In this document: piece by piece, positions 14,078 to 39,007 of the stretch
Numbering within the stretch: position 1 is the first letter of the stretch
How the letters are laid out: every line of letters starts with the position of its first letter
Source of the DNA: an uncultured Desulfomonile sp.
Lineage (GTDB): Bacteria; Desulfobacterota; Desulfomonilia; Desulfomonilales; Desulfomonilaceae
NCBI GenBank assembly: GCA_903952205.1
Contig: CAJBEZ010000034.1
Coordinates: 1-39,007 of the forward strand
Reading direction: 5' to 3'
Length of the DNA: 39,007 nt
Program-made: the position numbers and the translations under genes
Notes under the pieces: generated by a model
Databases searched by the model: none
Seen by the model: the letters and a program-made list of their open reading frames with translations, nothing else
Told to the model about the DNA's origin: nothing

Positions 14078-14091
14078 ATGTGAGGTAGTTG

Positions 14092-19616: not shown

Positions 19617-19617
19617 C

Positions 19618-21376: not shown

Positions 21377-21400
21377 ATTAAAAACAGTGAAGGAACAATA

Positions 21401-21634: not shown

Positions 21635-21658
21635 GTAAAGCGTGACGTTAAACTCTCC

Positions 21659-21691
21659 GGGAAGCGTATAAAATCGCTTCCCATTTTTTTT
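21659..21691 (+). terminator. Rho-independent terminator
   Basis: GGGAAGCG (21659-21666) and CGCTTCCC (21675-21682) form a perfect 8-bp stem with loop TATAAAAT, followed by an A and eight T residues. It ends or attenuates the recombination-gene transcript before the replication block. Read-through or an antitermination system would be needed for the early promoter to serve the genes beyond it. Confidence 0.85.
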
Positions 21692-21790
21692 ACGAATTTT
21701 CACCCCCTATACAGCTAATCAAATTTTCATGGGGCCGTAAGGATAGTTTTACATGAGATCCATGTTTTATTCCAAGGGGGGTAACTTGCT

Positions 21791-22453: not shown

Positions 22454-22454
22454 A

Positions 22455-24221: not shown

Positions 24222-24229
24222 GGGAGTCG

Positions 24230-25714
24230 ATGTTACCACAACATAAAAACGCCGAACAAATTGTCCTGGGTCTGGCCATCGACAACCCTATAATCGCCCA
24301 CCAGGTCGCCAAACTGAATAACAATCTGTTTTACGAACCTATCTATAAAATAATCCATCTGGCGGTAGCAAGATGTGTTCAGGGGAGCTACGGCCTGGAT
24401 TCATTCACAATAGCGAATATGGTTAAAACAGTTAAAATAAAAGGACTTTATAAAGATATCGAACTGTTGGATGTTATTCAATTAATCGACAATCTTCCTC
24501 CTAAAAGCCAAATTAACGCCTATGTCAAAATGCTTAAAGAGGCCCAAGCTCAACGCGATATTCTGAGCATGTGTCAGGACACAGCCGCAAAACTGAGGGG
24601 ACGGCTATTTTACCAATCCGAAATTGATGAAATTGTAAACGGCTTTAAAAATAACCTTTTTAAAATCCGGACCACCGATCAAAGGGTAGCTGAACATGCT
24701 CACTCTTCAGCCGCCAAAGCTGTTGAAAAAATAGAATCAGCGATAAAGCATGGGGATCAGGAAAACGGTATACCTTCCGGGTTTCCAGCCCTTGATGAAA
24801 TTACGTCAGGGTTTAGGGAGGGGCAGTTAATTATTTTTTGTGGCCGACCTGGAATGGGAAAAACGTCTCTAGCTCTTGATATTTGCGCTCACTCTTCAAG
24901 TTCAAAGCCAAATTGTAGCCGAACGAGTTATTTCTTTTCGCTGGAAATGTCCACGGAAGAAATTTCAGCACGTTTATTGTCAAAATTGTCCAATGTGAAC
25001 CTGAAAAACCTGCGAACTACCGACATTAGTAACAGCGATCTAAAACAATTACGGACCGCCGCCCTGAATTTACTTGATCACAAATTAGTTATCGACGACT
25101 CACCTCAATTATCTCCAGCGAATATAAAGGCGAGAATAACGGAACGCGAGGTTCTTTACGATGAAAAGCCGGACATTATTTTCGTGGATTACCTGCAATT
25201 AATGGCTCCGGACCAAAAACAAAATTCCCGTGAACGAGAGGTCGCAGGCATGAGCCGGGATCTCAAACTCCTGGCCCGTGAGTTAAATATACCTGTAGTT
25301 GTAATGAGCCAGTTAAACCGAGAACTTGAGAAAAGACCCAACCGCAGGCCAATTATGGCCGACATTAGAGAATCCGGAGCCGTCGAACAGGACGCAGACA
25401 TTATCATAGCGCTTTATCAACCGTTTCTTTACACCAACAACGTTAGTGACCAAGGCAAGGCCGAGGCCATAATACTAAAACATAGAAACGGGCCTGTTGG
25501 AACGGTCCCATTGATTTGGCGTTCCGCAACTTCGTCGTTTTTTCCAGTTCATATCAATGGAGCTTCCTACTTTCGAGACGAGCCGAACAATAGCGCCGTT
25601 TTAGCCAAACCCTATGAAACAGATGACGGCCCGGAAATCGAATACACATGTTTTTCACCTGACAACGCAGCCAATATTTCCAAAACAGTCAATGAGAAAG
25701 AACTACCGTTTTAG
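24230..25714 (+). CDS. dnaB: Replicative DNA helicase, DnaB family
   Basis: A 494-residue hexameric 5'-3' replicative helicase. The N-terminal helical domain spans 1-105 and a linker follows. The RecA-like motor shows Walker A GRPGMGKT (205-212), the H1a glutamate region FSLEMSTEE, Walker B IIFVDYLQL (D320), then SRDLKLLARELNIPVVVMSQLNRELEKR and the arginine-finger region around ILKHRNGPVGTVPL. Length and motif order are normal for DnaB. It follows the initiator gene by eight bases, with GGGGAG at the start, so initiator and helicase are co-expressed. The C-terminal residues KELPF loosely resemble an SSB tip. Confidence 0.93.
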   Translation: MLPQHKNAEQIVLGLAIDNPIIAHQVAKLNNNLFYEPIYKIIHLAVARCVQGSYGLDSFTIANMVKTVKIKGLYKDIELLDVIQLIDNLPPKSQINAYVKMLKEAQAQRDILSMCQDTAAKLRGRLFYQSEIDEIVNGFKNNLFKIRTTDQRVAEHAHSSAAKAVEKIESAIKHGDQENGIPSGFPALDEITSGFREGQLIIFCGRPGMGKTSLALDICAHSSSSKPNCSRTSYFFSLEMSTEEISARLLSKLSNVNLKNLRTTDISNSDLKQLRTAALNLLDHKLVIDDSPQLSPANIKARITEREVLYDEKPDIIFVDYLQLMAPDQKQNSREREVAGMSRDLKLLARELNIPVVVMSQLNRELEKRPNRRPIMADIRESGAVEQDADIIIALYQPFLYTNNVSDQGKAEAIILKHRNGPVGTVPLIWRSATSSFFPVHINGASYFRDEPNNSAVLAKPYETDDGPEIEYTCFSPDNAANISKTVNEKELPF

Positions 25715-25903
25715 GCGCAATCGCTTAAAACACGTCTATTTTAATCGTGGCGCAAGTTTATATTAAAACCGTCGAGGATACGTCGCCGGTAGATAACAAA
25801 CGCAACAGCGTGGACGCTGGACGGTATTTTGTAAACGTTTTGAGTAACATCTTAATGTGCCTTGTCATTTGCAAGTAAGTCATTGCTGTCAAGAGGGGGG
25901 AAA

Positions 25904-26524
25904 ATGAGACAGGAACCAGGTAAAGTTGTTTTAACATCAACAAAAGGGAACAATTCCGATCTCCTAGCGTCGGCTTTCAATCTCTATGTTCCGGATGGGA
26001 GTGTGGTTGCCGATGTTACTTTCGGTAAAGGGGTTTTTTGGAGAAACATTGATAAAACTAGATATTTACCGATTATATCAGACAAACAACCGGGTTTTAA
26101 CATCGACGCCAGAGTTGACTTCAGATCGTTACCGTACAGGGACGGATCAATTGACGCTGTGATGTTCGATCCGCCCTATCTGAGCGGTGGAGATACGGTT
26201 GTGGGCCACCTCAACAAGCAATATTCATGTGACGCCAGAACATCTCACCAGGGCATTATAAGGCGTTATACCGCCGGTATCGTGGAATGTTCTCGGGTGT
26301 TAAGAAAACGAGGCCGAATCTTTATCAAATGCCAGGATGAAACCGTTAGCGGTAAACAGCGATTCACACATCTTGAATTAATTAACATTCTGGAAATGTT
26401 GGGTTATTTAATTTTAGACCTATTTATATTAACCACGCCCGCCACGCCATGTATGCGGCATGATTACCAGAGATCGGCGAGAAAGAACCATTCATACCTT
26501 ATAGTGGCGGAATTACGAAACTAA
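25904..26524 (+). CDS. Small DNA methyltransferase (DPPY type)
   Basis: A 206-residue SAM-dependent methyltransferase. Motif I-like VADVTFGKGVFW (about 35-46) binds SAM and DPPY (89-92) in AVMFDPPYLSGGD is the catalytic motif of N6-adenine or N4-cytosine methylases. The protein is short, with no separate target-recognition domain, as in phage orphan methylases. It ends with RKNHSYLIVAEL, a strand common to the fold. ATG 25904 follows AAGAGGGGGG. No cognate restriction gene is present, so protection against host restriction or regulation of element genes is likelier than a restriction system. Confidence 0.75.
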   Translation: MRQEPGKVVLTSTKGNNSDLLASAFNLYVPDGSVVADVTFGKGVFWRNIDKTRYLPIISDKQPGFNIDARVDFRSLPYRDGSIDAVMFDPPYLSGGDTVVGHLNKQYSCDARTSHQGIIRRYTAGIVECSRVLRKRGRIFIKCQDETVSGKQRFTHLELINILEMLGYLILDLFILTTPATPCMRHDYQRSARKNHSYLIVAELRN

Positions 26525-26566
26525 TTTTAAACTGCAAGCTGTGACTAGTTACTAGCAAGAACTAGC

Positions 26567-26596
26567 TTGACATTGAAGTGGCGGTTGGTGTATAAT
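26567..26596 (+). promoter_or_regulatory. Consensus sigma-70 promoter with operator-like repeats
   Basis: A perfect TTGACA (26567-26572) and perfect TATAAT (26591-26596) are separated by 18 bases. Three ACTAG units (ACTAGTTACTAG and ACTAG, 26544-26565) lie immediately upstream of the -35 box and look like protein-binding sites. It should be the strongest promoter in the element and drives either the genes from 26747 onward or a short leader RNA. Confidence 0.75.
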
Positions 26597-26669
26597 TCAC
26601 CACAGTTGATGGACGCCTTGATGTGATTTTTGTTTTCTATCAGTTTCTTCTTTTTTCTTTTCGCTGCGA

Positions 26670-26716
26670 GGGGAAGAAAATTGTTAAAGCAACAAATTAA
26701 TAATCTTTTCTTCCCC
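26670..26716 (+). promoter_or_regulatory. Stable hairpin in the leader of the 26.75-kb operon
   Basis: GGGGAAGAAAA (26670-26680) pairs perfectly over 11 bp with TTTTCTTCCCC (26706-26716). An inner TTGTT/AACAA stem (26681-26695) stacks on it. ATTTTAAAAGTTTT follows. Placed about 70 bases after the predicted transcription start and 30 before the first gene, it may be an attenuator, a terminator of a small RNA, or a 5' stabiliser. The T-run is interrupted, so complete termination is not assured. Confidence 0.55.
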
Positions 26717-26746
26717 ATTTTAAAAGTTTTAAATATGGAGTTTTAA

Positions 26747-26953
26747 ATGAATGAAATTGAACATCGCTTGGCTAGTTTAAGATGCACAAATTGCGGCGAA
26801 TCATTACAGACAATCCTGTCAAGACTTTCACTTGGTGTGTTTAGATCACATCCAGTTCAATGTCCGAAGTGTCATTGGCTTTGTTATGTTAATACTGAGC
26901 TATCTCTCTCAATTAGCGATCAAGCTATATTGCCCGTGCCGAATGCGGCCTGA
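26747..26953 (+). CDS. Small zinc-ribbon protein
   Basis: A 68-residue protein with two CxxC knuckles, CTNCGESL (C13, C16) and CPKCHWLC (about C39, C42), the layout of a zinc ribbon. TGGAG lies about seven bases before the ATG. It is the first gene after the consensus promoter and hairpin leader. The Com-type translational activators of phage Mu are also small zinc-knuckle proteins placed ahead of a methylase gene, so a comparable role is conceivable but unproven. Confidence 0.55.
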   Translation: MNEIEHRLASLRCTNCGESLQTILSRLSLGVFRSHPVQCPKCHWLCYVNTELSLSISDQAILPVPNAA

Positions 26954-26964
26954 ATACCATTACT

Positions 26965-27480
26965 ATGCCTAATTTTGCAGACATTCCTGATCTGTCTCAA
27001 GGTGTAGTTAAGGCGGAAAAATCCAGGCAACTCAGCGCCCACATCAAGAAAAGACTTGTTACACTTCAGAAACGGGCCGAAGAAAGTAAGAGCATTAAAA
27101 GTATATTTGGTTTCCCTGTCTCGGCTCAAATTACTTCACAGCCTCTTGGCCGGTCTGAATACATTTCGATACCGAAAACGATTGCTCTAAACCCGCTTAT
27201 TCCGGCTCATGTCAAAATAATCTGGCTTTATATCAAGACTATTGCGCCGAATAGTGATGGTTTACGCATTATCAAACCTGAGATTGTGGCCGAGCGAATG
27301 AAATTATCCAGGTCAACCATTGAAAATTACCTTCAACACCTAAGAAACTATAATTTGCTGATCAAAGCCAAGAAGTCGGCATACAAATCGGCCTATTACC
27401 TGTTACAGCCGCATAAGTTCGACCCGAAAATGGATCAGCAAAAATACCGGAAAGACACTCATTCCTATGAACCATATTAA
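26965..27480 (+). CDS. Winged-helix protein, hypothetical
   Basis: A 171-residue protein. The C-terminal half holds a winged helix-turn-helix (PAHVKIIWLYIKTIAP, then IKPEIVAERMKLSRSTIENYLQHLRNYNLLIKAKKS) of the type found in phage replication and plasmid regulators. The N-terminal half is a basic helix. No strong ribosome-binding site precedes the ATG; translation may be coupled to the zinc-ribbon gene ending 11 bases upstream. Its last nine residues, KDTHSYEPY, are encoded by the first of two 29-bp repeats, and dcm starts within that end. Confidence 0.55.
   Translation: MPNFADIPDLSQGVVKAEKSRQLSAHIKKRLVTLQKRAEESKSIKSIFGFPVSAQITSQPLGRSEYISIPKTIALNPLIPAHVKIIWLYIKTIAPNSDGLRIIKPEIVAERMKLSRSTIENYLQHLRNYNLLIKAKKSAYKSAYYLLQPHKFDPKMDQQKYRKDTHSYEPY
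27452..27480 (+). repeat. 29-bp direct repeat, left copy, at the start of dcm
   Basis: This copy is identical at 28 of 29 positions to 28704-28732 (one A/T difference at 27474). It encodes the end of the upstream protein (DTHSYEPY, stop TAA) and contains, in another frame, the dcm start codon (27467). Repeat spacing is 1252 bp. Confidence 0.9.
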
Positions 27481-28732
27481 AACCGGTGGGGATCACTCAA
27501 TTACATTTGGCTCTTTATTTTCAGGCATAGGTGGAATTGATTTAGGTTTAGAAATGGTTGGAATGAAGCCTCTTTGGCAATGTGAAATCAACAAATTCTG
27601 CCGGGAGTTACTTAGTAAACGCTGGCCTGATTTAAAATTATACGGAGACATTGGAGACATTGACGAAAAAACACCAAGACCAGACGTCCTTTGTGGCGGA
27701 TTCCCCTGCCAGGATATTTCTACAGCCAACACAAAAGGCAAAGGGCTCGACGGTTCAAAATCGGGACTATGGTTTGAATTCTACCGAGTCATTCGCATAT
27801 TACGACCGAGATACGTCCTCGTGGAGAACGTTGCAAACCTCGTTAATAAAGGACTTGACCGAATACTGCAGGGCCTGGCCGAAATCGGGTATGATGCTGA
27901 ATGGCAGGTGCTATCGGCGGCCCAGTTTGGAGCGTGGCATCTGCGGCGAAGAATCTTCATTGTTGCCTACACCAACAGCTTCGACGGACAGGGCAGCGGC
28001 GAAACAGAATTTGAATTGGAGTGGACTGACTACGGCGTACAAAGAGAATGGAACAAAAGTTCAGATTCATCTCAAAGACGCCGTCCAGAAACTACTCTTG
28101 CCGACCCCTCGGAATTGCAGCGCAATGGCTGCTGCAATAACCACGGATTCAGCTCACAATCCAAAGAGATTTCCGAATCTGGAGACAGTGGTGGGGAGAA
28201 TGCTGCTTCCGACTCCACAAACCAACAGTATAGGCGGCAAAACCATTCCTCCGGATGCGAAGTGGCAAGGGCTCACAGTAGCGGTGAGTGGGGAGAGGAA
28301 AATGCAAGTTCCCCTGGAGACTGCGGTGAAAAAACTTCTTCCTACACCAACTGCGTCTTTGCAGGGGGGACGAGTCAACCACTGCGCCCAAGGGAAGGGC
28401 GGATGGGATCTGGCTTCGGCGGTAACAGACAGTATGTCCGAAATTCCCCGGTGTCTATGGGCTATCCCGACGGCTCAGGACACGAAAGACAACGCCGGTC
28501 CTTCACAATGTTCCCGGAACAGTTTGCCTCTGAACGTTATAGTTGGTGGAAGGCTGAACCCGGAATTTGTCGAGTTCATGATGGGATTCCCAATCGGGTG
28601 GACAGACTTAGGAGCCTCGGAAACGCCGTAGTTCCTGAAGTGGCTGAGTATTTAGGAGAACTGATTGTGAATCACAGTAGACGAGTCTTTGAGTCTATTA
28701 AACAAGACACTCATTCCTATGAACCTTATTAA
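27467..28732 (+). CDS. dcm: C5-cytosine DNA methyltransferase
   Basis: A 421-residue C5-methyltransferase. Motif I is SLFSGIGGIDLGLEMVGM (about 16-33). Motif IV GGFPCQDIS carries the catalytic C81. Motif VI is VLVENV (E120). Motif VIII is LRRRIFIVAY (159-168). The C-terminal motif IX/X region RVDRLRSLGNAVVPEVAEYLG closes the fold. Between motif VIII and IX, about 200 residues where the target-recognition domain belongs are Ser/Gly/Arg-rich and featureless. The same DNA encodes a conserved protein in the +1 frame, which may explain the odd composition. No endonuclease gene is present, so it is an orphan methylase. The start lies 14 bases inside the preceding gene, and the gene is bracketed by 29-bp repeats. 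Confidence 0.85.
   Translation: MNHIKTGGDHSITFGSLFSGIGGIDLGLEMVGMKPLWQCEINKFCRELLSKRWPDLKLYGDIGDIDEKTPRPDVLCGGFPCQDISTANTKGKGLDGSKSGLWFEFYRVIRILRPRYVLVENVANLVNKGLDRILQGLAEIGYDAEWQVLSAAQFGAWHLRRRIFIVAYTNSFDGQGSGETEFELEWTDYGVQREWNKSSDSSQRRRPETTLADPSELQRNGCCNNHGFSSQSKEISESGDSGGENAASDSTNQQYRRQNHSSGCEVARAHSSGEWGEENASSPGDCGEKTSSYTNCVFAGGTSQPLRPREGRMGSGFGGNRQYVRNSPVSMGYPDGSGHERQRRSFTMFPEQFASERYSWWKAEPGICRVHDGIPNRVDRLRSLGNAVVPEVAEYLGELIVNHSRRVFESIKQDTHSYEPY
27651..28631 (+). CDS. Overlapping +1-frame phage protein with LPTP repeats, nested in dcm
   Basis: A 326-codon frame lying wholly inside dcm in the +1 frame. Its product carries family-like blocks: YDRDTSSWRTLQTSLIKDL...WPKSGMMLNGRCY (about 51-88), four LPTP motifs (about 105, 150, 186, 230) each starting a similar unit, and the end LNPEFVEFMMGFPIGWTDL (302-320). 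I know this LPTP/GFPIGWT pattern from phage proteins usually encoded with C5-methylases; the function is unknown. A chance frame would not hold several spaced, repeated motifs over 326 codons. The start is uncertain: only TTG (27651, 27660) or GTG (27693) precede the conserved part, with GGAG close by. Frameshifting from dcm is another possible route of expression. Confidence 0.65.
   Translation: METLTKKHQDQTSFVADSPARIFLQPTQKAKGSTVQNRDYGLNSTESFAYYDRDTSSWRTLQTSLIKDLTEYCRAWPKSGMMLNGRCYRRPSLERGICGEESSLLPTPTASTDRAAAKQNLNWSGLTTAYKENGTKVQIHLKDAVQKLLLPTPRNCSAMAAAITTDSAHNPKRFPNLETVVGRMLLPTPQTNSIGGKTIPPDAKWQGLTVAVSGERKMQVPLETAVKKLLPTPTASLQGGRVNHCAQGKGGWDLASAVTDSMSEIPRCLWAIPTAQDTKDNAGPSQCSRNSLPLNVIVGGRLNPEFVEFMMGFPIGWTDLGASETP
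28704..28732 (+). repeat. 29-bp direct repeat, right copy, at the end of dcm
   Basis: The second copy of the 27452-27480 sequence. It encodes the last eight residues of the methyltransferase (DTHSYEPY, stop TAA) and contains the ATG (28719) of the next gene in the same relative position as the dcm start in the left copy. Recombination between the copies would remove exactly 1252 bp and leave the flanking genes joined with an intact stop/start overlap. Confidence 0.9.
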
Positions 28733-28958
28733 GCGGGGGAAAATGGAAGCAAAAACAGTTTATGTGGTTATGCGAACGATTGTTTTTGGGCCTGATGAAA
28801 GGTTCCCGGAATTCAGAATTGAACCAGTCGGAGTTTTTGCTACCCGATCTGAAGCCAATCTTGCAGTGGAGGAGGAATACAGAAACCAGTATGACACTCT
28901 TTTCCAGCAATTTTTCGTTCAACCGGCAGTATGGCGATCCAGAGTTTCACCATTTTAG
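28719..28958 (+). CDS. Small hypothetical protein
   Basis: A 79-residue frame from the ATG in the repeat, or 71 residues from ATG 28743 (MEAKTVYVVMRTIVFGPDERF...). The first overlaps the dcm stop and mimics the dcm start context, so coupled initiation there is favoured. The product looks like a compact alpha/beta protein (VYVVMRTIVF, FRIEPVGVFATRSEANLAVEEEYRNQYDTLF), of the kind in which a phage-encoded strand-helix unit is annotated as hypothetical. No function can be assigned. Confidence 0.5.
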   Translation: MNLIKRGKMEAKTVYVVMRTIVFGPDERFPEFRIEPVGVFATRSEANLAVEEEYRNQYDTLFQQFFVQPAVWRSRVSPF

Positions 28959-28977
28959 TCCCAGACATAGTTTTAAT

Positions 28978-29040
28978 GGGGCCATAGTTCAGCGGAAGAA
29001 CACCAAAGCCATCGCAGAGGTTCGATTCCTCTTGGCCCCC
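28978..29040 (+). tRNA. tRNA-like sequence lacking a normal anticodon arm
   Basis: A 7-bp acceptor stem GGGGCCA (28978-28984)/TGGCCCC (29033-29039), a D arm GTTC-AGCGGAA-GAAC and a perfect T arm AGAGG-TTCGATT-CCTCT (29016-29032) are all intact. Between D and T arms only 14 bases remain (normally about 23) and they cannot form an anticodon stem. No CCA is encoded. It is either a tRNA pseudogene with a deleted anticodon arm or a tRNA mimic. The untouched acceptor and T stems argue that the fold is kept or the deletion is recent. It cannot decode as it stands. Confidence 0.5.
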
Positions 29041-29086
29041 TAACAACTTAAATCCAGGCAAACAATGGAACAACCTGAGTAAAACC

Positions 29087-29230
29087 TTGAAGCGTAAATT
29101 AAAAATTTATTCCCCCCTTTGCCATAAGTGCCCACGGTATGATTATTACGAAGGAATAGCCTGGTGTTTTTATAATAACGTTTTCAGTAATCACGCTTTT
29201 ATTAAAATCTGTCCCGGAAGACCGGAATAA
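29087..29230 (+). CDS. Very small four-cysteine protein
   Basis: A 47-codon frame starting with TTG encodes a peptide with C12, C15, C27 and C42 (CHKCPRY..., AWCFYNN, KICPGRPE). The CxxC...C...C spacing recalls the 21401-21634 product and other phage metal knuckles, which is the reason for calling it. The start has only a weak TGAG upstream, so initiation is uncertain, and the frame is open further upstream. Confidence 0.4.
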   Translation: MKRKLKIYSPLCHKCPRYDYYEGIAWCFYNNVFSNHAFIKICPGRPE

Positions 29231-29264
29231 TTAAAACGACGAAATTGATTTAATGGAGGGAAAA

Positions 29265-29984
29265 ATGAAAAGGTTTGCAATCTTAATGCTGGTTTTGTTT
29301 CTGACGTCAACCGTTCATGCAAATATTCCCAAGACCAACATTGGACTCGATTTGGTAATCGCCAAACAAGATCTTAGCCTTGAACGTGACAATAAACCGG
29401 GAATAAATTTTAACGACGACATCAACGTCAACCGGGATACATCGCTTTGCGAGGTTTACGGAAGCGCAAATTCCGGGAATTTCTCAGCAAGAGGATACTA
29501 TTTATTCCCTAAAAAACTCTCCGGGTCTGGAAAACTTTTGCCGGGGCAATATGACTCGCCTGATCCTGAAAAAAACAAAAACGAAATTGCGGCGACAGTG
29601 GAAAATTCCTTTAAAGCGTCCAGGCTGGAAATTGGTGTCCCGATATTTTATCGAAATATTGCCGTTGAACCATTTTTCGTCAACCAGTGGACTACCTGCA
29701 ACTTTCAGATAAAATCCGATGAGTTCAACTATAACAAAGAGTTAAGCTGTTCAAATGCTGGCTTCGGTGTTTTTGTAACTGAGTTGTTTCAGGACGCTAC
29801 ACTTAATTTGAAATGGTTTAAAACCTCGAATGACTCCCTCTTTGAAGCTAAATATTCAGGTTTCAATCCTTCATACTTCTGGTCCATCGGGTACACTTAC
29901 AGGACATTTAACCTTGGATATTCGGAGGGGAAAATCCAAACCAGCATAAAAGGCCCGATATTTGAAGCGGGGGTTGTTTTTTGA
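29265..29984 (+). CDS. Secreted outer-membrane beta-barrel-like protein
   Basis: A protein of 239 residues from ATG 29265; an ATG at 29253 overlaps the GGAGGG ribosome-binding site, so the later start is preferred. A Sec signal peptide (MKRFAILMLVLFLTSTVHA) precedes the mature chain. The mature part is rich in alternating polar/hydrophobic strands and aromatic residues (ASRLEIGVPIFYRNIAVEPFFV, LFEAKYSGFNPSYFWSIGYTYRTFNLGY) and ends in FEAGVVF, the C-terminal aromatic signature recognised by the BAM machinery. It is unusual in a phage early operon; altering the cell surface against superinfection is a reasonable but unproven role. The dCMP deaminase start overlaps its stop. Confidence 0.6.
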   Translation: MKRFAILMLVLFLTSTVHANIPKTNIGLDLVIAKQDLSLERDNKPGINFNDDINVNRDTSLCEVYGSANSGNFSARGYYLFPKKLSGSGKLLPGQYDSPDPEKNKNEIAATVENSFKASRLEIGVPIFYRNIAVEPFFVNQWTTCNFQIKSDEFNYNKELSCSNAGFGVFVTELFQDATLNLKWFKTSNDSLFEAKYSGFNPSYFWSIGYTYRTFNLGYSEGKIQTSIKGPIFEAGVVF

Positions 29985-30538
29985 TGAGACCCTCCTGGCA
30001 CGAATACTTCATGATGTTGGCAAAATTGATAAGTTCCCGGTCTACGTGTAATTCACGAAAAGTTGGGGCAGTAATTGTTAAAAACAACATAATTCTGGTG
30101 GCTGGCTACAATGGAGCGCTCGGCGGACAACCTCACTGTTCCGATAAAACGCCGGGCTTTTGTTCCCGACGTTACATGGGAATAGGAGACGCTGAAAAAT
30201 ATAATTACTGTGTTGCGTCTCACGCAGAATCAAACGCAATTAGTCAGGCCGCCCGACATGGCGTGTCGTTGGAAGGCGGAACCCTTTACTGCACGCTCGA
30301 ACCCTGTAATGCGTGTTTAAAACAAATAATTCAGGCCGGGATCGCAGAAATATATTTTGAAACTACTTATGACTCCGAAAATGAGCAGTTTGATGAGTTT
30401 TGGCGACAAACCGTTAAAAACCAGAGAGGCGTGAAAGTTTGCAAGCAAATATCAGTTTCGGACCATGCGAAAGACTTTACCATTGATATCCTAAAAGGCA
30501 ATTCCAACAGGCAAATAAAGGAAGTGATAGCAATATGA
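29984..30538 (+). CDS. Deoxycytidylate deaminase family protein
   Basis: A 184-residue zinc-dependent deaminase of the dCMP/ComEB type that converts dCMP to dUMP, feeding dTTP synthesis. The zinc/catalytic site HAE (H80, E82) in VASHAESNAI and the PCNAC box (C108, C111) are intact. The insertion between strands (CSDKTPGFCSRRYMGIGDAEKYNYC) carries extra cysteines as in T4-like dCMP deaminases, which may bind a second zinc. ATG 29984 overlaps the previous stop (TGATG). Phages often carry this enzyme to support rapid DNA synthesis, which fits the replication genes upstream. Confidence 0.85.
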   Translation: MRPSWHEYFMMLAKLISSRSTCNSRKVGAVIVKNNIILVAGYNGALGGQPHCSDKTPGFCSRRYMGIGDAEKYNYCVASHAESNAISQAARHGVSLEGGTLYCTLEPCNACLKQIIQAGIAEIYFETTYDSENEQFDEFWRQTVKNQRGVKVCKQISVSDHAKDFTIDILKGNSNRQIKEVIAI

Positions 30539-30615
30539 TAGACGTATCCAATAGTAACTCGGCGCTAATTGACGCCCTGGCTTCTACGGCAGGATCAAGT
30601 TTTGAAAGCCGCTAA
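30535..30615 (+). CDS. Possible 26-residue micro-ORF
   Basis: An ATG overlapping the deaminase stop (ATGA) opens a 26-codon frame (MIDVSNSNSALIDALASTAG...) that ends at 30615, after the next gene has begun at 30602. The tight overlaps on both sides suggest it may serve to carry ribosomes across. There is no recognisable function. Confidence 0.3.
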   Translation: MIDVSNSNSALIDALASTAGSSFESR

Positions 30616-30853
30616 TACGCCAAAAGAAATCAGATGCAATAATTGCGGGCGAATAAATCAGTTCAAAAAGATCCAAACGATGAGGCCAAGCAAACCCGAA
30701 CCTTATTCCGGACAGGAAGACGAAACTAAATTCGCTAGTGATTGTGTTTGCGGGTGGACCACAATAGCGTTAGGTCCAGTGTCACATGAAGTTGATCCAT
30801 TAGTAATAACCACAAAATCCGAAAGAAAAATGACCTGGGGAAAAGATGAATAA
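30602..30853 (+). CDS. Small zinc-ribbon protein
   Basis: An 83-residue protein from TTG 30602 with CNNC (about C12, C15) and CVC (about C48, C50), followed by GW, a probable zinc ribbon. The linker is charged and Pro-containing. A TTG start with CAGGAT upstream is a compromise; a frame from 30569 has no better site. No family is assigned. Confidence 0.45.
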   Translation: MKAANTPKEIRCNNCGRINQFKKIQTMRPSKPEPYSGQEDETKFASDCVCGWTTIALGPVSHEVDPLVITTKSERKMTWGKDE

Positions 30854-30858
30854 AAAAA

Positions 30859-30975
30859 ATGATCGAGGCTATCGAAAACTTGTCTTTAGTGGAAATTATT
30901 AATGCCGCAAAAAAGACAATATCCTGGAATTTTTCTTGGAAAGTGTTTTTAGATTTCAAAATAACGGGAGAATAG
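30859..30975 (+). CDS. Small hypothetical protein
   Basis: A 38-codon frame starting five bases after the previous stop encodes MIEAIENLSLVEIINAAKKT and a short aromatic tail. Its location fills the gap to the next gene; the ribosome-binding site is poor (GAAGATG). It is listed as tentative. Confidence 0.3.
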   Translation: MIEAIENLSLVEIINAAKKTISWNFSWKVFLDFKITGE

Positions 30976-30981
30976 GATTTT

Positions 30982-31353
30982 ATGAGTAAAATATTTGTAG
31001 ATAAGGCTGACATAGTCAAGATGTTGGGTTTGCTTTGGGAAGGGGAGCCTCAATCGGTTGAATGTGTGAGGTGTATGCTTATCAATTTAGCAGAGACTAA
31101 ACCTGAAACGATTACTGAGGCAGAATATTTAGCTGATAAACCAATCCCATACCTAGCTCCGGAAATTGTTGTTAAGTCTATCCAAGAAGAATTCAGAAAC
31201 AGACAAGCCATTTTAAAGTTAGCTGATATGCTTGGGGAATACGCCAATGATGGAGATGCTGGCCCTGGGCATCCTGTGTTACCTCGAAGGGATTTGAAAA
31301 TGCGAGATAAATGCCATGAAATACAAAGAATGTTTGTCAATGAGGATCATTAG
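30982..31353 (+). CDS. Hypothetical protein of the element
   Basis: A 123-residue, mostly helical acidic protein (DKADIVKMLGLLWEGEPQSVECVRCMLINLAETKPE...). It has no recognised motif apart from a CVRC pair. GGGAGAATAGG precedes the ATG. The stop is directly followed by the next start without a base between them. Confidence 0.5.
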   Translation: MSKIFVDKADIVKMLGLLWEGEPQSVECVRCMLINLAETKPETITEAEYLADKPIPYLAPEIVVKSIQEEFRNRQAILKLADMLGEYANDGDAGPGHPVLPRRDLKMRDKCHEIQRMFVNEDH

Positions 31354-32106
31354 TTGAGCAAACAAACCCTTTTTAACGTCAAGTCACCAAGCCATTCGAA
31401 CTTAATGACCAAAACGCTACTTAAAAAACTCTTAACCAGGTCTCCGGCTTTAATTGAGATCCCTGCCGGAGCCCCCGTTGAAGTTGCAGAGGCCCATACC
31501 AGATACGCCAATAAATTTGACACCCCTGGGCCTCCATTACATGTTGGATCAGTTCATACCCCAACCAGACAGTCTACTCATTTTTACACAAATCACCCAA
31601 CGGAAGAGGCAAGACACCAGCAACTCGCCAAGCAAAAATCAACTAAGCTGTTGCCTGTTAACGAGGACGTTGAACGTGCAATGGCGGAAAGCAAACATGT
31701 TTTTGGTCAAGGATTTAACTGGGATTATTATAAAAAAAACCCGGAACTAAAAGAAGCTAAACCTTCCCTAGTGGCCCCTGATTGCCACGCCTGGCATTTA
31801 ATAGGCCCCGGTGTGTTTTTCATTTATACCCTGGAAACAATAAACACCATTGACGCCCAACAATATTTTACTCACCCTTTATACGCAATGCCCATAATAA
31901 GCCCTGTAATTGAATTCCTACCTATATTTGGTCAACCTAGACTGATACTGCCGGATACAAAAAAACCAGCCCAAATAGCCATATACGTGCCTGACACAAT
32001 TAAAATTGAATTCTTCTCAGTTTACCCTATTGCTCACCTTACACTTTTTTCCTCGCTGTTAACCCCGCCTGTAAACGAAATGTTTTCCTATGCCCTAGAA
32101 ACATGA
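31354..32106 (+). CDS. Hypothetical protein, last gene of the element
   Basis: A 250-residue protein starting at TTG 31354, seven bases after GAGGAT. The first 20 residues are basic; the middle is Pro/His/Thr-rich and extended (GPPLHVGSVHTPTRQSTHFYTNHPTEE); the last 90 residues alternate hydrophobic strands (WHLIGPGVFFIYTLETI, MPIISPVIEFLPIFG). It has no signal peptide and no known domain. Tight packing with the preceding gene puts it in the element's operon, and the change to host-like gene spacing begins after it. Confidence 0.5.
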   Translation: MSKQTLFNVKSPSHSNLMTKTLLKKLLTRSPALIEIPAGAPVEVAEAHTRYANKFDTPGPPLHVGSVHTPTRQSTHFYTNHPTEEARHQQLAKQKSTKLLPVNEDVERAMAESKHVFGQGFNWDYYKKNPELKEAKPSLVAPDCHAWHLIGPGVFFIYTLETINTIDAQQYFTHPLYAMPIISPVIEFLPIFGQPRLILPDTKKPAQIAIYVPDTIKIEFFSVYPIAHLTLFSSLLTPPVNEMFSYALET

Positions 32107-32123
32107 GGACTATCCCGATAATG

Positions 32124-32220
32124 TTTTAGGGCCGTCAGAAAAAATTTTCTGATCCGGTAAATCGACTAAAATGGGCTCTATATATTACAGGTATAGGAGG
32201 GAGGGGTAGAAATAGAAATT
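32124..32220 (+). repeat. Intergenic repeat, copy 1
   Basis: About 97 bp that align with 37810-37905 over their full length at roughly three-quarters identity. Conserved cores are TCAGAAAAAATTTTCTG (an AT-rich inverted repeat), TCTATAT and GGTATAGG...GAGGGGTAG.AATAG. It is non-coding and lies upstream of the small secreted protein gene. Confidence 0.75.
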
Positions 32221-32309
32221 GCGTCATCCTTACCTTGGGTATACAAAGTAATATCTCACAAGGGAAAAGATTAGCCGGGCCAATATCGCAGACGCTACAG
32301 GGGTCTGAA

Positions 32310-32564
32310 ATGAAAGTTATTGCCACCGCTATTATCTTCACTCTACTGCCAGTAGTCAGATTTGGATCTGACCGAAGCACTCAGGTCCGTGACCAATACG
32401 GCAATTTTATTCAAACAAAAGAACTATACTGGGATGAAACCACTGTCCGGGATCGCGATGGGAACATCACCCGAACCGAGCGACATGACGGCCAAGGCCA
32501 GAAAACCATCCGTGATAGGCAAGGGAATCTAATCGGAACTGAACAAGTTGATTTTTGGATATAA
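32310..32564 (+). CDS. Small exported protein with RD-x-x-GN repeats
   Basis: An 84-residue protein from ATG 32310, which has AGGGG six bases upstream. A hydrophobic N-terminus (MKVIATAIIFTLLPVV) looks like a signal peptide or anchor. The rest contains three short repeats with the pattern R-D-x-x-G-N (RDQYGNFIQTKE, RDRDGNITRTE, RDRQGNLIGTE), reminiscent of single YD/RHS-type beta turns. The function is unknown. Confidence 0.5.
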   Translation: MKVIATAIIFTLLPVVRFGSDRSTQVRDQYGNFIQTKELYWDETTVRDRDGNITRTERHDGQGQKTIRDRQGNLIGTEQVDFWI

Positions 32565-32643
32565 TTGTGGGAGCAATTCTAGAGCGCATCCTGATGCTTA
32601 AAACATGCGGGAGAAACTCGTTCTAAGACTTGGAGGACAACAG

Positions 32644-35496
32644 ATGAAGACCAAAACGTTATGGGGAATTATCTGGATTCTTCTTATTTTATGGGCTGGA
32701 ACAGTTCTGGCGCAAACTGAGAATGAGGCTATTAACCTGGCCAAGGAAGCCAGTAATATCTATGATAACGCCAAATCTAAAGAAGATTATCAGCGAGCTG
32801 CACAGAAATATGAAGAGGCCCTGAAAATCTTTGAAAGAGTCAAATTAGACATGTGGACAGGTATCTGTTCCCGCCAACTCGGTTTTATTCAAACTATTCT
32901 TGGACATTATCAGAAGTCGCTTGAGTATGGTGAGAAGTCTCTTGCGATAAATAAGAAGATAGGTGATGTAAAAGGTGAGGGGAGATCACTCAACAACATC
33001 GGTTTGGTCTACGAAAAGCTAGGCCAATACACCAAGGCCCTGGACTACCATGAGCGGTCGCTGGCGATACGTAAGAAGATAGGCGATGTGAGTGGCGAAG
33101 GTGTAAGTCTGGGCAACATCGGCTTAGTCAGCATGGGCCTCGGCCAATACACCAAGGCCCTGGACTACTATGAGCAGTCGCTGACAATAATGAAAAAGAC
33201 CGGGAACGCGAAACATGAGTGCTACGTACTTACCCACATAGGCTCGGTCTTGGAAAGACTGGGCCAATACACCAAGGCCCTGGACTACTATGAGCAATCA
33301 CTAACGATAAGTAAGAAGATAGGCGATGTGAGTGGCGAAGGTGCAAGTCTGGGCAACCTCGGCTTCGTCTACAAAAAGCTCGGCCAATACACCAAGGCCC
33401 TAGACTACTATGAGCAGTCGCTGGCGATACGTAAGAAGATAGGCGATGTAAGCGGTGAAAGCGACGTTCTTTGGAACATTGGGAATACATACGCTCAGAT
33501 GGGCAGTTATGACGAGGCCCTAAAAGTGGCAAATGAGTCGCTTGTAATCAAAACAAAAATGGGTGTTCCAATTAAACTAATCAAAGACAGCATCGCTAAC
33601 TATTATCTTGACGCTGGAAACCTGGTCAAAGCAGAACCCTTAATAAATGAGACCAAATATGATTCAACTCTTGGCCGATTGGCCCTCATAAAATCTGATT
33701 ATCCTTCAGCGCAAAGGTATTACCAAAAAGACTCAGCATGGGCAGAGAAGACCGGGATCACAGATTTGCTCTTTCGTAGTTACACAGGTCTGGCGAGGGC
33801 CTATGAGGGTATGAAGAACTACCCTAAAGCCGAAGAATATTATGAAAAAGCAATGAACCAGGTTGAGGAGATACGGTCCGGTCTTCAACCCTCAGAACGC
33901 ATGAACTTCTTTGAAGTAAATGAAAGCGGTTTTACCCGATCCGACCCGGCAAAGGGTTTAGCCAGGGTGAGGATGAAACTCAACAGACCTGAAGAGAGCG
34001 TAGCTCCGGGGGAACTGACAAAGGCAAGAGCATTCGCCGATCATTTGACTCAGACCAATGCGACAGGGGCAACAAACATTCCTCCTAAGATCATAGAGGA
34101 AGAGCAATCGCTGGTTAATTCTCTGGCCGCCATGAAGACGGAACTCTATAAGACCGACCGAGAAAAACAACCCGAGAAATACAAGAATTTATCTGAGGCT
34201 GTTGAGGAGATAAAGACCAAGCTGAGCAGATTTGTAGACGATCTTTGGAAATCCTATCCGGCCTATGCCGCTGTAAAGTATCCGAAGCCAATTACTGTTA
34301 AAGAATCCGCTGTGAAGCCTGAAGAATTTATGGTTCTATTCGATGTATCCAGCGAGGGCGTCGGTGTCAAACTGGTCGCTGACAAGAATATCAAGAAAGC
34401 TTTTTATGTGGATTGGAAGCAAAAAGACCTAGAGGAGACTGTAAAAAACTTCCGTGATCCACTTGTGGGTCTTAAATTCCGTGATTTTGACCCTGAGTTG
34501 GCCAAATTACTCTACGACAAACTTTTACGCCCGGCTTTGGACGAGGTGCCCAAAGGTGCCCCTATAATAGTTATACCTGACGGGATCCTTGCAATTCTGC
34601 CTTTTGAATCTCTGGTCACCAAAGGCAAGGCTTCGTGGAATAAAGGGATCGCTGGGCATCCTTATCCAGAGGGGTTGACCTTTCTGGCGGATGAGCACCC
34701 GATCGGCTACTATCAGTCACTTACCGCATTAACATTGGTTAGAACTCTTGGATCCAAAATCAAGCCGGGCACCAAACTTGTTGTTATCGCTGACCCTGTT
34801 TTCCAGATGACGGATGCCAGAGCCCAAAAGACAGGCGAAACCAAAATAACCAAAAAAGAGCAGGAAAGATCTATTGAGCTTATGGCCACCATTGAAGATA
34901 GTAGCCAGGGAACGTTGAGATTCAACAGACTTGAAAAAACGTCAGCCTTGGCCGACAACCTTGGAACCCTGTATGGTTCGGATTGCCTTGCGTTGAAAGG
35001 TTTAGCGGCCAGCAAGGCTGAATTCATGTCAAAAGTCGTCCCTAATCTGGATACTTACGGGAGCGTTGTTTTTGCAACGCATGGCGCTATGAGTACCAAG
35101 GTTCCTGGTTTAATGGAGCCGTTCCTGGCCCTTTGTATGGTTCCAGTTGGCACGGACGGATTCCTGAAGATGTCGGATATTGTCTCGTTGAAAATGAATA
35201 CCGACGTCGTAGCCTTGACCGCATGTCAAACAGCTCTTGGGAAAGATCTATCAGGCGAGGGTGTTATGAGTATGGGGCGAGCCTTTCAGTATGCTGGATC
35301 AAGTTCTGTGCTTATGACATTGTGGGAAGTTGAAGAGTCCTCAGCGGTGCAACTGGCTCAAAGTTTCTTCAAATATCGCAAGGAAGGCAAGAGTAAACTT
35401 GACGCTCTGCAGGCCGCCAAGAAGGATATTCGTGACGCCGGTTATAAACACCCTTATTTCTGGAGCGGATTCATACTGGTTGGGGAGGTGAATTGA
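32644..35496 (+). CDS. Exported TPR-CHAT protease-like protein
   Basis: A 950-residue protein from ATG 32644 (GGAGG seven bases upstream; a more upstream ATG lacks a site). A Sec signal peptide (MKTKTLWGIIWILLILWAGTVLAQ) predicts export. A tetratricopeptide array follows, with 40-residue units of the type GLGQYTKALDYYEQSL, then helical repeats to about 420 and a C-terminal CHAT caspase-like domain. The dyad is visible: H813 in VVFATHG and C861 in VALTACQT, with the usual GEGVMSMGRAFQYAGSSSVLMTLW after it. CHAT domains are cysteine peptidases often switched by TPRs. The extracytoplasmic location separates this from the cytoplasmic CRISPR-linked TPR-CHAT enzymes. Confidence 0.85.
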   Translation: MKTKTLWGIIWILLILWAGTVLAQTENEAINLAKEASNIYDNAKSKEDYQRAAQKYEEALKIFERVKLDMWTGICSRQLGFIQTILGHYQKSLEYGEKSLAINKKIGDVKGEGRSLNNIGLVYEKLGQYTKALDYHERSLAIRKKIGDVSGEGVSLGNIGLVSMGLGQYTKALDYYEQSLTIMKKTGNAKHECYVLTHIGSVLERLGQYTKALDYYEQSLTISKKIGDVSGEGASLGNLGFVYKKLGQYTKALDYYEQSLAIRKKIGDVSGESDVLWNIGNTYAQMGSYDEALKVANESLVIKTKMGVPIKLIKDSIANYYLDAGNLVKAEPLINETKYDSTLGRLALIKSDYPSAQRYYQKDSAWAEKTGITDLLFRSYTGLARAYEGMKNYPKAEEYYEKAMNQVEEIRSGLQPSERMNFFEVNESGFTRSDPAKGLARVRMKLNRPEESVAPGELTKARAFADHLTQTNATGATNIPPKIIEEEQSLVNSLAAMKTELYKTDREKQPEKYKNLSEAVEEIKTKLSRFVDDLWKSYPAYAAVKYPKPITVKESAVKPEEFMVLFDVSSEGVGVKLVADKNIKKAFYVDWKQKDLEETVKNFRDPLVGLKFRDFDPELAKLLYDKLLRPALDEVPKGAPIIVIPDGILAILPFESLVTKGKASWNKGIAGHPYPEGLTFLADEHPIGYYQSLTALTLVRTLGSKIKPGTKLVVIADPVFQMTDARAQKTGETKITKKEQERSIELMATIEDSSQGTLRFNRLEKTSALADNLGTLYGSDCLALKGLAASKAEFMSKVVPNLDTYGSVVFATHGAMSTKVPGLMEPFLALCMVPVGTDGFLKMSDIVSLKMNTDVVALTACQTALGKDLSGEGVMSMGRAFQYAGSSSVLMTLWEVEESSAVQLAQSFFKYRKEGKSKLDALQAAKKDIRDAGYKHPYFWSGFILVGEVN
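33001..33480 (+). repeat. Four tandem 120-bp units encoding TPRs
   Basis: Units start at 33001, 33121, 33241 and 33361, each containing GGCCAATACACCAAGGCCCT at the same offset. The high DNA identity, well beyond what the protein needs, points to recent duplication or gene conversion of 40-residue TPR modules. Copy number may vary between strains. Confidence 0.85.
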
Positions 35497-35683
35497 GGCA
35501 GAGTCACAGTCTTGAGCAAATCTGTGAAACGTATGCCATGAAAGTCTTTTTATGGTGGTCAGGCGGAACCATCAGGATAAAAAGGTTAAGCAGGATGGAC
35601 AAGACGGAAGCCTACTCAACAGGAATCAGACACCGGAAATTCCCCCTCTGGATAAGTTAGCATCAGCGCAAAGGAGGTTCGCA

Positions 35684-36556
35684 ATGAAGGCTCTAATCGC
35701 AATACTAATTGGATTCGTAATGGTATTTGTTTCCGCTTGTCAACAAGACTCAAAAGTGGCCGATGGCGATACCGACTTCAAAACTGGGCTAAAACATTAC
35801 GAGGGTGACGGCGTGCCTCAAGATTACGCAGATGCCATGAAATGGTTTAGCAAGGCATCTGATCAAGGGTCTTCAGCGGCTATGTTTGCTATCGGCACGA
35901 TGCATGCGGACGGAAAGGGCGTCACTCAAAATTATAGTCGGGCGCTGAAATGGTATCAGAAAGCCGCTGATCTGGGAAATACGACGGCTCAACATGCTAT
36001 TGGTTTGATGTATGCTAAAGGTGAGGGTGTTACTCAGAATTCTGCAGAGGCTCTGAAATGGTTTTTCAAAGCCGCGGAGAACGGCAATGCCAAAGCTCAG
36101 CTTGGTATTGGTGTCAGGTATTATACGGGCGAAGGAGTAACCCGAGACTATATGGAAGCGCTGAAATGGTATCAAAAAGCCGCTGATCAGGGTAACGCCA
36201 TGGCTCAAGAGGCCGTTGGGGGGATGTATAAAAATGGCCTAGGCGTAAACCAAAATGTTGCAGAGGCCCTGAAATGGTTTCGATTGGCCGCTGATCAAGG
36301 CGATGTTTTTGCTCAAATCGAGATTGGGTCCATGCATCACGCGGGCGTAGGAGCTACCCAAGATTATATGGAAGCATTGAGATGGTATCAAGAAGCCGCC
36401 TTTCAGGGAAACGCCATAGCTCAAACCGCCATTGGAATGATGTATGAAAAAGGAGAGGGCGTGACTCAAGATTATGCAGAGGCTAAAAAATGGTATAAAG
36501 AAGCCGCTGATCAAGGTTTTCAATTAGCCAAGGACCTGCTGAAAAAACTCCAATAG
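35684..36556 (+). CDS. Sel1-repeat lipoprotein
   Basis: A 290-residue lipoprotein from ATG 35684 (AGGAGG upstream). The signal peptide MKALIAILIGFVMVFVSAC ends in a lipobox with C19, so it is predicted to be membrane-anchored in the periplasm. Seven consecutive 36-residue Sel1-like repeats follow, each with the pattern G..Y..G.GV.QD(Y)..ALKW(Y/F)..AADQGNA.AQ, forming an alpha-solenoid for protein binding. The gene follows the TPR-CHAT gene after about 190 bp in the same direction; the exported repeat proteins could act together (inference). Frame upstream of 35684 has no ribosome-binding site. Confidence 0.85.
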   Translation: MKALIAILIGFVMVFVSACQQDSKVADGDTDFKTGLKHYEGDGVPQDYADAMKWFSKASDQGSSAAMFAIGTMHADGKGVTQNYSRALKWYQKAADLGNTTAQHAIGLMYAKGEGVTQNSAEALKWFFKAAENGNAKAQLGIGVRYYTGEGVTRDYMEALKWYQKAADQGNAMAQEAVGGMYKNGLGVNQNVAEALKWFRLAADQGDVFAQIEIGSMHHAGVGATQDYMEALRWYQEAAFQGNAIAQTAIGMMYEKGEGVTQDYAEAKKWYKEAADQGFQLAKDLLKKLQ

Positions 36557-36685
36557 GTATCGTTTGGTCCTTGGAATCAGAAGCATGGCGGATTTGCAAC
36601 GCCAGCCACCAACTTTTTATCTTAACTTTTGTCCAACTAAAGTGAAACCTTAAAACAAGAGCGTCATAATAGATTCTATTACAAT

Positions 36686-37204
36686 TCAGCGACGTTTGCT
36701 TTTCAGCTTTGTTATCGTCATGAAGACCAATATCACCGTCGTTGCACCGAAGAAACCCATACAAAGTAAACTCATCAGCCATTCGGAAGGTTCTATGTAA
36801 ATTATGAAGCCGCCCATAAGAACAAAGATGAACGACAATAATGACAGAACTACCAGAACCCATGTGCTGTAGTATGGAAGGCTCTGAGCAAGGCTCTCGG
36901 AATATCGAAGTCTTTCTGCGGAAACCACCAGCCGTCGGGTCACCGTAGCGCTCCAGACCAAATATCCGCCGATTCCGAGAATGGTGCAACCCGCAGCGTA
37001 AAACCAGTTCAAAAAATATATGCTAATTCCCATGGCCAGGAACATGACTACGTAGTATACCTTCAGGGCGGATCGTATACGAGAATGCTCTGCTGCTGAC
37101 GAAACTACGTACCCTTTCCCGATTATGCCCCAAGGATAGAAAAGGGTTGTCCCTGACTCAGACTTCTTGAACAGAGAATTCACAAGCGCATCTAAGTAAG
37201 ACAT
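36686..37204 (-). CDS. Four-helix membrane protein, hypothetical
   Basis: A 172-residue inner-membrane protein with four predicted helices at about 48-64, 65-86, 114-137 and 142-164, and a basic tail KLKSKRR. The N-terminal 45 residues are soluble and include FYPWGIIGKGYVV. GGAGGTGA precedes the ATG. No family is recognised. It points toward the Sel1 gene and is followed upstream by another small membrane protein on the same strand. Confidence 0.6.
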   Translation of the reverse strand: MSYLDALVNSLFKKSESGTTLFYPWGIIGKGYVVSSAAEHSRIRSALKVYYVVMFLAMGISIYFLNWFYAAGCTILGIGGYLVWSATVTRRLVVSAERLRYSESLAQSLPYYSTWVLVVLSLLSFIFVLMGGFIIYIEPSEWLMSLLCMGFFGATTVILVFMTITKLKSKRR

Positions 37205-37302
37205 TTCATCACCTCCAATTCTTTGAGCAGGGTTATTTTTTGACTCAAATTATGGTGAATGTCGGATTACAAGGGCCTAGTTTAAACACATATCGTCCGT
37301 AT

Positions 37303-37542
37303 TCATTTCGAGACGAGCCAGTGTAATATGACAAAAAACAGAACTACCAGACAACTGACTCCAGCAATACGCAACAACAAAATGATCGAAGATCTACCCG
37401 CCTTTCTGCTTAGTTGCCGCAATTCTGGAGATGACATCTCAGATTTCTTCTCAATTCCGGCACGTCGAAGAGCATGGTCCGCTTGTTCCGTGCACAGCAG
37501 GTCTATGTCGTGGTTACGTCCACATATTGGGCAATACGCCAT
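37303..37542 (-). CDS. Small zinc-ribbon protein with C-terminal membrane anchor
   Basis: A 79-residue protein from the ATG at 37542, chosen because GGAGGA lies seven bases upstream. It begins MAYCPICGRNHDIDLLC, half of a zinc ribbon, has a charged helical middle and ends in one membrane helix (about 53-76, IILLLRIAGVSCLVVLFFVILHW). Such ribbon-plus-anchor proteins are frequent and uncharacterised. It probably shares regulation with the membrane protein gene 100 bp downstream on the same strand. Confidence 0.55.
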   Translation of the reverse strand: MAYCPICGRNHDIDLLCTEQADHALRRAGIEKKSEMSSPELRQLSRKAGRSSIILLLRIAGVSCLVVLFFVILHWLVSK

Positions 37543-37809
37543 GAATTGTTCCTCCGACTTCTCGAACATCACCACCAAGAAGTAGTGATATCTACTGTGG
37601 GCTCAACAGAGATGAAATCCTTTCGCTTATTGGGCAACGCTTTGCGCCCTCATTGTGAGATTAATCGTACCGGTTTCAGTTTCTTAATAATGACAAACCT
37701 TGCTTATATCAGCGACAATTACATTTGAGTGTCAACGACAAATACATTTTTGCATCTTGCGGAAAGCGTTCGATTTCCCCTGGAGCCCAATGGTTTCCTA
37801 TAACTGCCC

Positions 37810-37905
37810 TTTTAGATTACTCAGAAAAAATTTTCTGGTCAGGGAAATTGACTCAGGCGCTTTCTATATGATGCCGGTATAGGGGGAGGGGTAGCAATAG
37901 GAATG
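37810..37905 (+). repeat. Intergenic repeat, copy 2
   Basis: The second copy of the 32124-32220 element, keeping TCAGAAAAAATTTTCTG, TCTATAT and GGTATAGGGGGAGGGGTAG. It lies in the 470-bp gap between the zinc-ribbon gene and the SpoIIAA-like gene, where I see no coding sequence. Confidence 0.75.
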
Positions 37906-38014
37906 GCATTTATCGGGGACAAAATCTTTATAGCATTTTCAATGGCACAATAGTTGGCTTTCATTATTGTTAAAGATGCGGCCCCCCCGTCTCACCATTG
38001 AGCCCTACAGTAGC

Positions 38015-38377
38015 TTAAGCTTTGACCCAACTCCATGCATCATCAAGCTGGTCAGCGGTGTAAGTCTTTATTTCGGCTGAAACTAGATGAGATGCGATTT
38101 TGGTACTCCATTCAGCCCACTTAGGACCGCCTACAACTGCGATCTTCTCGAAATCATTCCTGTGTTTCATACCGAATTTAGCGTCGTCCCACATGGCGCC
38201 CACTTCCCAACCTTGGAAGCCCTCGTCCATGAAATAGACACACCTGACCTTGCCGTACTCTTTGATTAGGTTCTCCAGGGTTGGCATAAAGACCTTCTTG
38301 TAATCGTCATCAGTAGCTTTACCCGTCAAACGGACTCCGAGAATCTTACCCTGCGATTTCGCCAGAACTTCGATCAT
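38015..38377 (-). CDS. SpoIIAA-like (STAS-fold) protein
   Basis: A 120-residue protein from ATG 38377, with AAGGAG upstream; an earlier ATG at 38419 lacks a site. The pattern MIEVLAKSQGKILGVRLTGKATDDDYKKVFMPTLENLI, then GWEVGAMWDDAKFGMKHRNDFEKIAVVGGPKWAEW and a closing helix, matches the SpoIIAA-like family with a STAS-related fold. Members occur widely in proteobacteria and their role is not settled; some may bind lipid or nucleotide. It stands alone and is divergent from the LysE-type gene. Confidence 0.8.
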   Translation of the reverse strand: MIEVLAKSQGKILGVRLTGKATDDDYKKVFMPTLENLIKEYGKVRCVYFMDEGFQGWEVGAMWDDAKFGMKHRNDFEKIAVVGGPKWAEWSTKIASHLVSAEIKTYTADQLDDAWSWVKA

Positions 38378-38548
38378 GGTCAGTCTCCTTTTAGTATTAG
38401 CCTGATTCTTCGACAACAAGATATCATTGCCCCTGAAGTTAAGTCAAAGATATCCAGATATATATTTGCAATTCACTTTGACATGTATAATGTGCAATGG
38501 GTTGGAGCGAAACTATTTTGTTGAAATGGTAGCAACTGTAGAATCGAC

Positions 38549-39007
38549 ATGGACATCTTTTTAAGCGCCGGGATTACATTGGGTCTGTCCGCAGGCTTCT
38601 CTCCAGGGCCACTTAGCACTCTCGTAATTTCTCACTCACTCCGGTATGGGACCAGAGAGGGGGTAAAGGTTGCGATGGCACCCTTTATCACCGATGTCCC
38701 CATTGTCTTGTTGTCTGTCTTTGTCATGGCGCAATTGCGTGATTCGAAAACCGCTTTTGGATTAATCTCTATGATCGGGGCTGCAGTCTTATTCTACCTC
38801 GCGTATGAGAGTTTTAAAGTCGATAAGATTGAAACAGAAATGGTAGGAGTCGCTGACTCGCGTTCCGTATTGAAGGGAACGCTTGTTAACTTTCTCAGTC
38901 CTAATCCATATCTTTTCTGGTTGACCATTGGAGGGCCCAAGGTTGTTGAGGCATGGATGGACAGCGCCTTGGCGGTGGTTGAGTTTCTTGTCGGTTTCTA
39001 CGTGTGC
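38549..39007 (+). CDS. LysE/RhtB-family exporter, 5' part
   Basis: An ATG at 38549 opens a frame that is still open at the window end (153 codons). The first membrane helix with LSAGFSPGPLSTLVISHSLRYGTREGVKVAM is the hallmark of LysE/RhtB amino-acid exporters, where the GPG/SPGP motif lies in helix 1. Further helices (VPIVLLSVFVMAQL, LISMIGAAVLFYLAYESF) and the conserved segment LKGTLVNFLSPNPYLFWLTIGGP (helix 4 region) follow in normal order. About 50 residues are missing beyond the edge. The ribosome-binding site is weak. The substrate cannot be predicted. Confidence 0.85.
   Translation, partial: MDIFLSAGITLGLSAGFSPGPLSTLVISHSLRYGTREGVKVAMAPFITDVPIVLLSVFVMAQLRDSKTAFGLISMIGAAVLFYLAYESFKVDKIETEMVGVADSRSVLKGTLVNFLSPNPYLFWLTIGGPKVVEAWMDSALAVVEFLVGFYVC

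Follow-up and report, generated by a model that had tools for sequence, protein, structure and literature searches.

Transcription from promoters of the sigma-70 type starts 6–8 nt past the -10 element. According to PMC5664571 the UP element consensus is an A-tract at -57 to -54, a T-tract at -53 to -47 and a further A-tract at -44 to -41. The bacterial MITE-like small repeats, as presented in PMC2229807, are shorter than 200 bp, non-coding and intergenic, and the repeat described here resembles them in these respects. From its sequence we tentatively predict, at a little under an even chance, that this repeat is a duplicated promoter/leader region belonging to a small and old family.

Two copies of the repeat lie in direct orientation, 5.69 kb apart, in the window, which is the whole 39,007-nt stretch analysed and the entire contig C34 of a 4.78-Mb genome in 120 contigs. 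Copy 1 (32124–32222, forward strand) is located between an open reading frame at 31354–32106 and a small-protein gene, and copy 2 (37810–37907, forward strand) adjoins an insertion-sequence end relic and has no close downstream co-directional gene. The initial annotation had reported two similar non-coding stretches at these places, and the alignment bears this out: 76 of 104 columns are identical when gaps are admitted, and a local alignment of copy 1 to the remainder of the window scores 82, whereas 100 dinucleotide shuffles average 25.3 and never exceed 33. A repeat search of the window pairs 32124–32205 with 37810–37891 without gaps at 72% identity, and blastn with copy 1 as query returns copy 2 with E 2.5e-13 (78% identity across 88 nt); no other match in the own genome is better than E 0.018. 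Common to both copies are TCAGAAAAAATTTTCTG, TCTATAT, GGTATAGG and GGGGTAG. A runs test finds the mismatches between them clustered (P 0.010), and a second measure, the most mismatches per ten columns, is not unusual (P 0.14); similarity is absent from the flanks past ~100 nt. The clustering of mismatches around near-identical blocks, together with the dissimilar flanks, suggests constraint on the shared part.

The repeat is not confined to the window. Positions 31760–32553 have a 72% identical paralogue on contig C71 that takes in the repeat region together with the small-protein gene and the end of a 31354-like gene. A model trained on the sequences of copy 1, the C71 copy and copy 2 (R1) identifies a fourth member, outside its training set, at C94:29281–29357 (C94b; 31.7 bits, E 5.1e-7). 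Over 19 genomes R1 gives four places that stand apart, all in the own genome, with the next matches on own contig C64 (E 0.0019; 0.059 with R2, below) and on C247 of G004, a genome of the same genus (E 0.003). The own genome thereby holds at least four copies by model searches, 55–73% identical to each other, which provides the genome-wide count suggested with the initial annotation; nor is the window pair, as had been allowed for, alone in the genome, as the profile finds the copies on C71 and C94. The description of the repeat as occurring twice around the CHAT/Sel1 cluster therefore holds in that both copies are present, and is incomplete in that further diverged copies exist on these two contigs, neither of which clearly pairs with another around a CHAT cluster.

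A second model, R2, built from the four own copies, matches two places in same-genus genomes, G006:C212 (E 0.0018) and G004:C247 (E 0.066), both weaker and partial. The latter ranks below several other weak candidates and was retained because its pattern match is unique in the genome collection; a degenerate pattern for the 3' half of the repeat has a single match among 84,980 species genomes, at JARLHM010000154.1 4219–4241 ('Syntrophaceae bacterium isolate MAG_BA410'). Other weak model matches are on own contig C95 (E 0.035) and, in the same genus, at G002:C47 (E 0.0076 with R1, 0.016 with R2) and G004:C215 (E 0.044). A core model from all six places, R3, scores those six strongly by construction, since all were used in building it, and adds no other strong place in the 19 genomes; below them, at E 0.065, comes the sequence in G002 that corresponds to the G004 leader. 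The model E-values are rough, and copy counts are lower bounds because only the best candidates in the own genome were scored (15 of 60 in a first look, then 150 of 160 with R1, 150 of 1356 with R2 and 150 of 681 with R3). Blastn finds no repeat copies in 59 related genomes at E 0.01, a search of plasmids gives none, phages give a single 24-nt match at chance level, and viral contigs give no convincing copy.

The G006 relative has a PAS histidine-kinase gene on one side and a HicA-like gene ~220 nt on, and the G004 relative lies ~120 nt upstream of a PAS histidine-kinase ORF that is 91% identical to that of G006 over 642 bp. C94b and the G006 relative are alike for ~35 nt further downstream, with 84% identity over 68 nt overall. 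Directly after the core they have in common AACCTAAGTTGNAGATTANGGTTAACCT (L064 14366–14393; L125 1468–1495), the inner part of which has 0 matches in viral contigs. The two ends of the repeat also occur apart, the last half in G006 and G004 and the first half on C94, where a 31354-like gene is followed by a degenerate first half only (11.2 bits).

The four own copies share a single order of elements: an A-run and then a T-run, AAAT and G, a spacer that has diverged without changing length, the hexamer, TATAGG, a G-rich run of variable length, and AATA. One aligned column holds TATATT, TATAAT, TATGAT or TACAAT, which agree with TATAAT at 5, 6, 5 and 5 of 6 positions, enough in every copy to count as a -10 hexamer. 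When columns are shuffled, 3.2% of shuffles have all rows at 5 of 6 or better somewhere, a modest result, and the four copies are related. The TATAGG that follows is invariant in all four, leads into a G/A-rich stretch, and places an A at the predicted start in each. In copy 1 the hexamer TATATT is at 32181–32186 with a predicted start at 32193, and in copy 2 TATGAT is at 37867–37872 with a predicted start at 37879 (both forward strand). A sigma-70 consensus scan of 31000–39007 calls no site at either window copy and finds no TTGACA-like -35 at 16–18 nt; in G006 and G004 the core is retained and the hexamer is absent. Upstream is an A/T-rich dyad, CAGAAAA-AA-TTTTCTG, at 32136–32151 in copy 1 and 37822–37837 in copy 2 (forward strand), a possible site for an activator or the polymerase alpha subunit. 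It is intact in the two window copies only and broken in C71 and C94b. We rejected the dyad as a genome-wide operator on match counts, 12 forward and 11 reverse with up to 2 mismatches versus 7 and 10 for a reversed control (palindromic ones being counted on both strands); on these counts no regulon can be claimed.

The predicted start of copy 1 is 117 nt from the start codon of the first gene after it, an 84-aa small-protein gene (32310–32564, forward strand) whose product has no Pfam or PHROG match, and the corresponding distance at C71 is 108 nt. These two loci are homologous and so count as a single observation. At C94b it is 112 nt from the predicted start to the start codon of a candidate 56-aa ORF, the sole ORF that C94b precedes. 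At copy 2 the nearest co-directional start codon is 670 nt from the predicted start, with an opposite-strand SpoIIAA-like gene between them. The spacing to start codons that the initial annotation proposed to check is similar at copy 1 and C71 and not at copy 2. Of the alternatives that it offered, the common regulatory leader has most in its favour for copy 1 and C71, given their fixed -10-like hexamer and this spacing; copy 2 does not fit it. The small-protein family, which has a common leader, occurs in several copies in the genome and the genus (L070, L071, L075, L077, L078 and L079) and is likewise unmatched in Pfam and PHROG. Downstream on the same strand are a TPR-CHAT gene (32605–35496) and a Sel1-repeat gene (35552–36556). 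By eye the start of the TPR-CHAT protein resembles a signal peptide, and among the matches listed DNA related to its gene is present on C53, C39, C98, C94, C41 and others. The literature searched contained no paper on Syntrophaceae and the CHAT domain, and none on a Syntrophales promoter and an intergenic repeat.

In the promoter/leader that we propose, the A/T-rich upstream site, present as the dyad in the window copies, would contact the polymerase alpha subunit or an activator; the -35 would be weak or absent, with the TATAAT-like -10 hexamer downstream. Transcription would begin with the first A in the invariant TATAGG and continue into a G/A-rich initial transcript. From copy 1 a transcript would run through a 117-nt leader into the genes for the small protein, TPR-CHAT and Sel1, the first two of which are probably on the same transcript. 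Rfam has 0 matches to the repeat at gathering score, and folding of 8 stretches against shuffles gives z-scores of -1.20 to +0.74, without a fold signal; a structured RNA leader was rejected on these grounds, and a signal at the DNA level is accordingly more likely. A G-quadruplex was also discarded, as by eye in the four-copy alignment C71 and C94b have not retained the series of G-tracts. Small-protein paralogues on C75, on C21 and in G001 and G002 share the leader of the window gene starting from 32247–32300, and a search at E 10 finds no repeat with them. The repeat is thus not the sole possible promoter of the small-protein gene, and seems to be a module added upstream, not the ancestral promoter of this gene.

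Copy 2 is probably orphaned beside the insertion-sequence end relic at 37708–37762, ~50 nt away, which we take to be IS21-like. Copy 2 may have been separated from its former gene by rearrangement at this relic, an event that would explain its isolation. Relic-like ends are present at eight places in G011, at least 6 of the 8 lying no more than ~140 nt from the end of a contig; several same-genus genomes have them too, among them G004, where one is next to Sel1-like sequence. At the right end of the window, the last 139 bases (38869–39007) are identical to C73:9747–9885 on the other strand, and the window probably continues there.

Both window copies could alternatively derive from an old segmental duplication and now be without function. 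We think this unlikely: the low identity among the own copies, the inclusion of copy 1 and C71 in a longer 72% duplication, and the position of copy 2 against the insertion-sequence relic are all compatible with it, but neutral decay is at odds with the clustered mismatches, the near-identical blocks and the loss of similarity in the flanks of the window copies beyond ~100 nt. The same relic, and the occurrence of a short non-coding unit of less than 200 bp at four unrelated places, could point to a miniature mobile (MITE-like) element copied to several sites, as the initial annotation had suggested. This is very unlikely, and we rejected it on ends, flanks and copy number. Compared as inverted repeats, the first and last 25 nt agree at just 3, 4, 2 and 9 positions in the four own copies; the longest flanking direct repeats measure 3, 4, 3 and 0 nt when 6 nt of slack is allowed at either side, so that the search for target duplications yields none longer than 4 nt; and the own copies (at least four) are few and diverged, with none recovered by blastn in the related genomes.

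The surroundings of copy 1 raise another possibility, that prophage-like elements of the genus end at the repeat, which would be a boundary or attachment site where cargo blocks are joined by recombination. A prophage-like element occupies ~13.3–32.1 kb of the window (13300–32106) and encodes an integrase, RecT, DnaB and two DNA methyltransferases (Pfam), with no virion structural proteins recognised among the scanned proteins of the prophage-like elements; a co-linear relative is present in the same genome at C94:229–20839, ~40–80% identical by protein. The gene at 31354–32106 (forward strand) is the last of the window element, as its counterpart is in the C94 relative, and on C71 and C94 its homologues are likewise followed closely by the repeat or by the first half of it, such that three related right ends (window, C94 and a C71 remnant) stop at the repeat. 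On C71 a lone 31354-like gene, 90% identical to that of C94 over 668 bp, is followed by a window-like repeat region. C71 is thus a mosaic with a breakpoint near the left edge of the repeat, and makes the strongest case for a junction role, with which the separability of the repeat's two ends (the first half on C94, the last half in G006 and G004) also agrees. Against this, neither the window element nor its C94 relative has a copy of the repeat on the left, and an attachment pair is unlikely as no left-end partner was found. No exact match of 11 nt or more links 9–14.15 kb with 31.9–33 kb, a comparison that cores of 10 nt or less escape and in which the left boundary is not fixed, and the copies, at 73%, are too diverged for recent duplication of a core. 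A tRNA-associated site was dismissed as the window contains no tRNA. A boundary role is unlikely, and the initial suggestion that the copies mark a movable segment is weak, with no recombinase recognised between copy 1 and copy 2 and no counterpart of the repeat at the left end of the prophage-like element. We regard as most unlikely a combination of the two roles, a recombination boundary module in which a conserved 95-nt element end would double as a promoter expressing the joined cargo (the small-protein/CHAT/Sel1 cluster, PAS sensor kinases) and paired copies would permit exchange of blocks; such a module would show how these prophage-like elements meet their neighbours.

If the repeat is a shared promoter, as we favor, it would place the small-protein/TPR-CHAT/Sel1 cluster and a few other loci under one control signal, and would be a small clue to the regulation of CHAT-protein clusters in these bacteria. 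The consequence is modest as things stand.

Compared with known systems, the repeat differs from the MITE-like small repeats of PMC2229807 in having neither terminal inverted repeats nor target duplication, and in its few and diverged copies. It is like an attL/attR site in its position, since copy 1 and the corresponding C71 and C94 sequences border a prophage-like element, or what is left of one, on the right; no matching left-end sequence was found, and mismatches between copies affect at least a quarter of positions. The closest likeness we propose is to a sigma-70-type promoter, with a TATAAT-like hexamer at a fixed place in all four own copies and an A as predicted start, although the repeat lacks a TTGACA-like box at 16–18 nt. 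An A/T-rich tract, possibly UP-like, lies ~45–54 nt before the predicted start: by eye, copy 1 has an A-run at -54 to -49 and a T-run at -48 to -45 relative to 32193. This tract is ~3 nt off the UP consensus given in PMC5664571, and the proximal A-tract of that consensus is missing.
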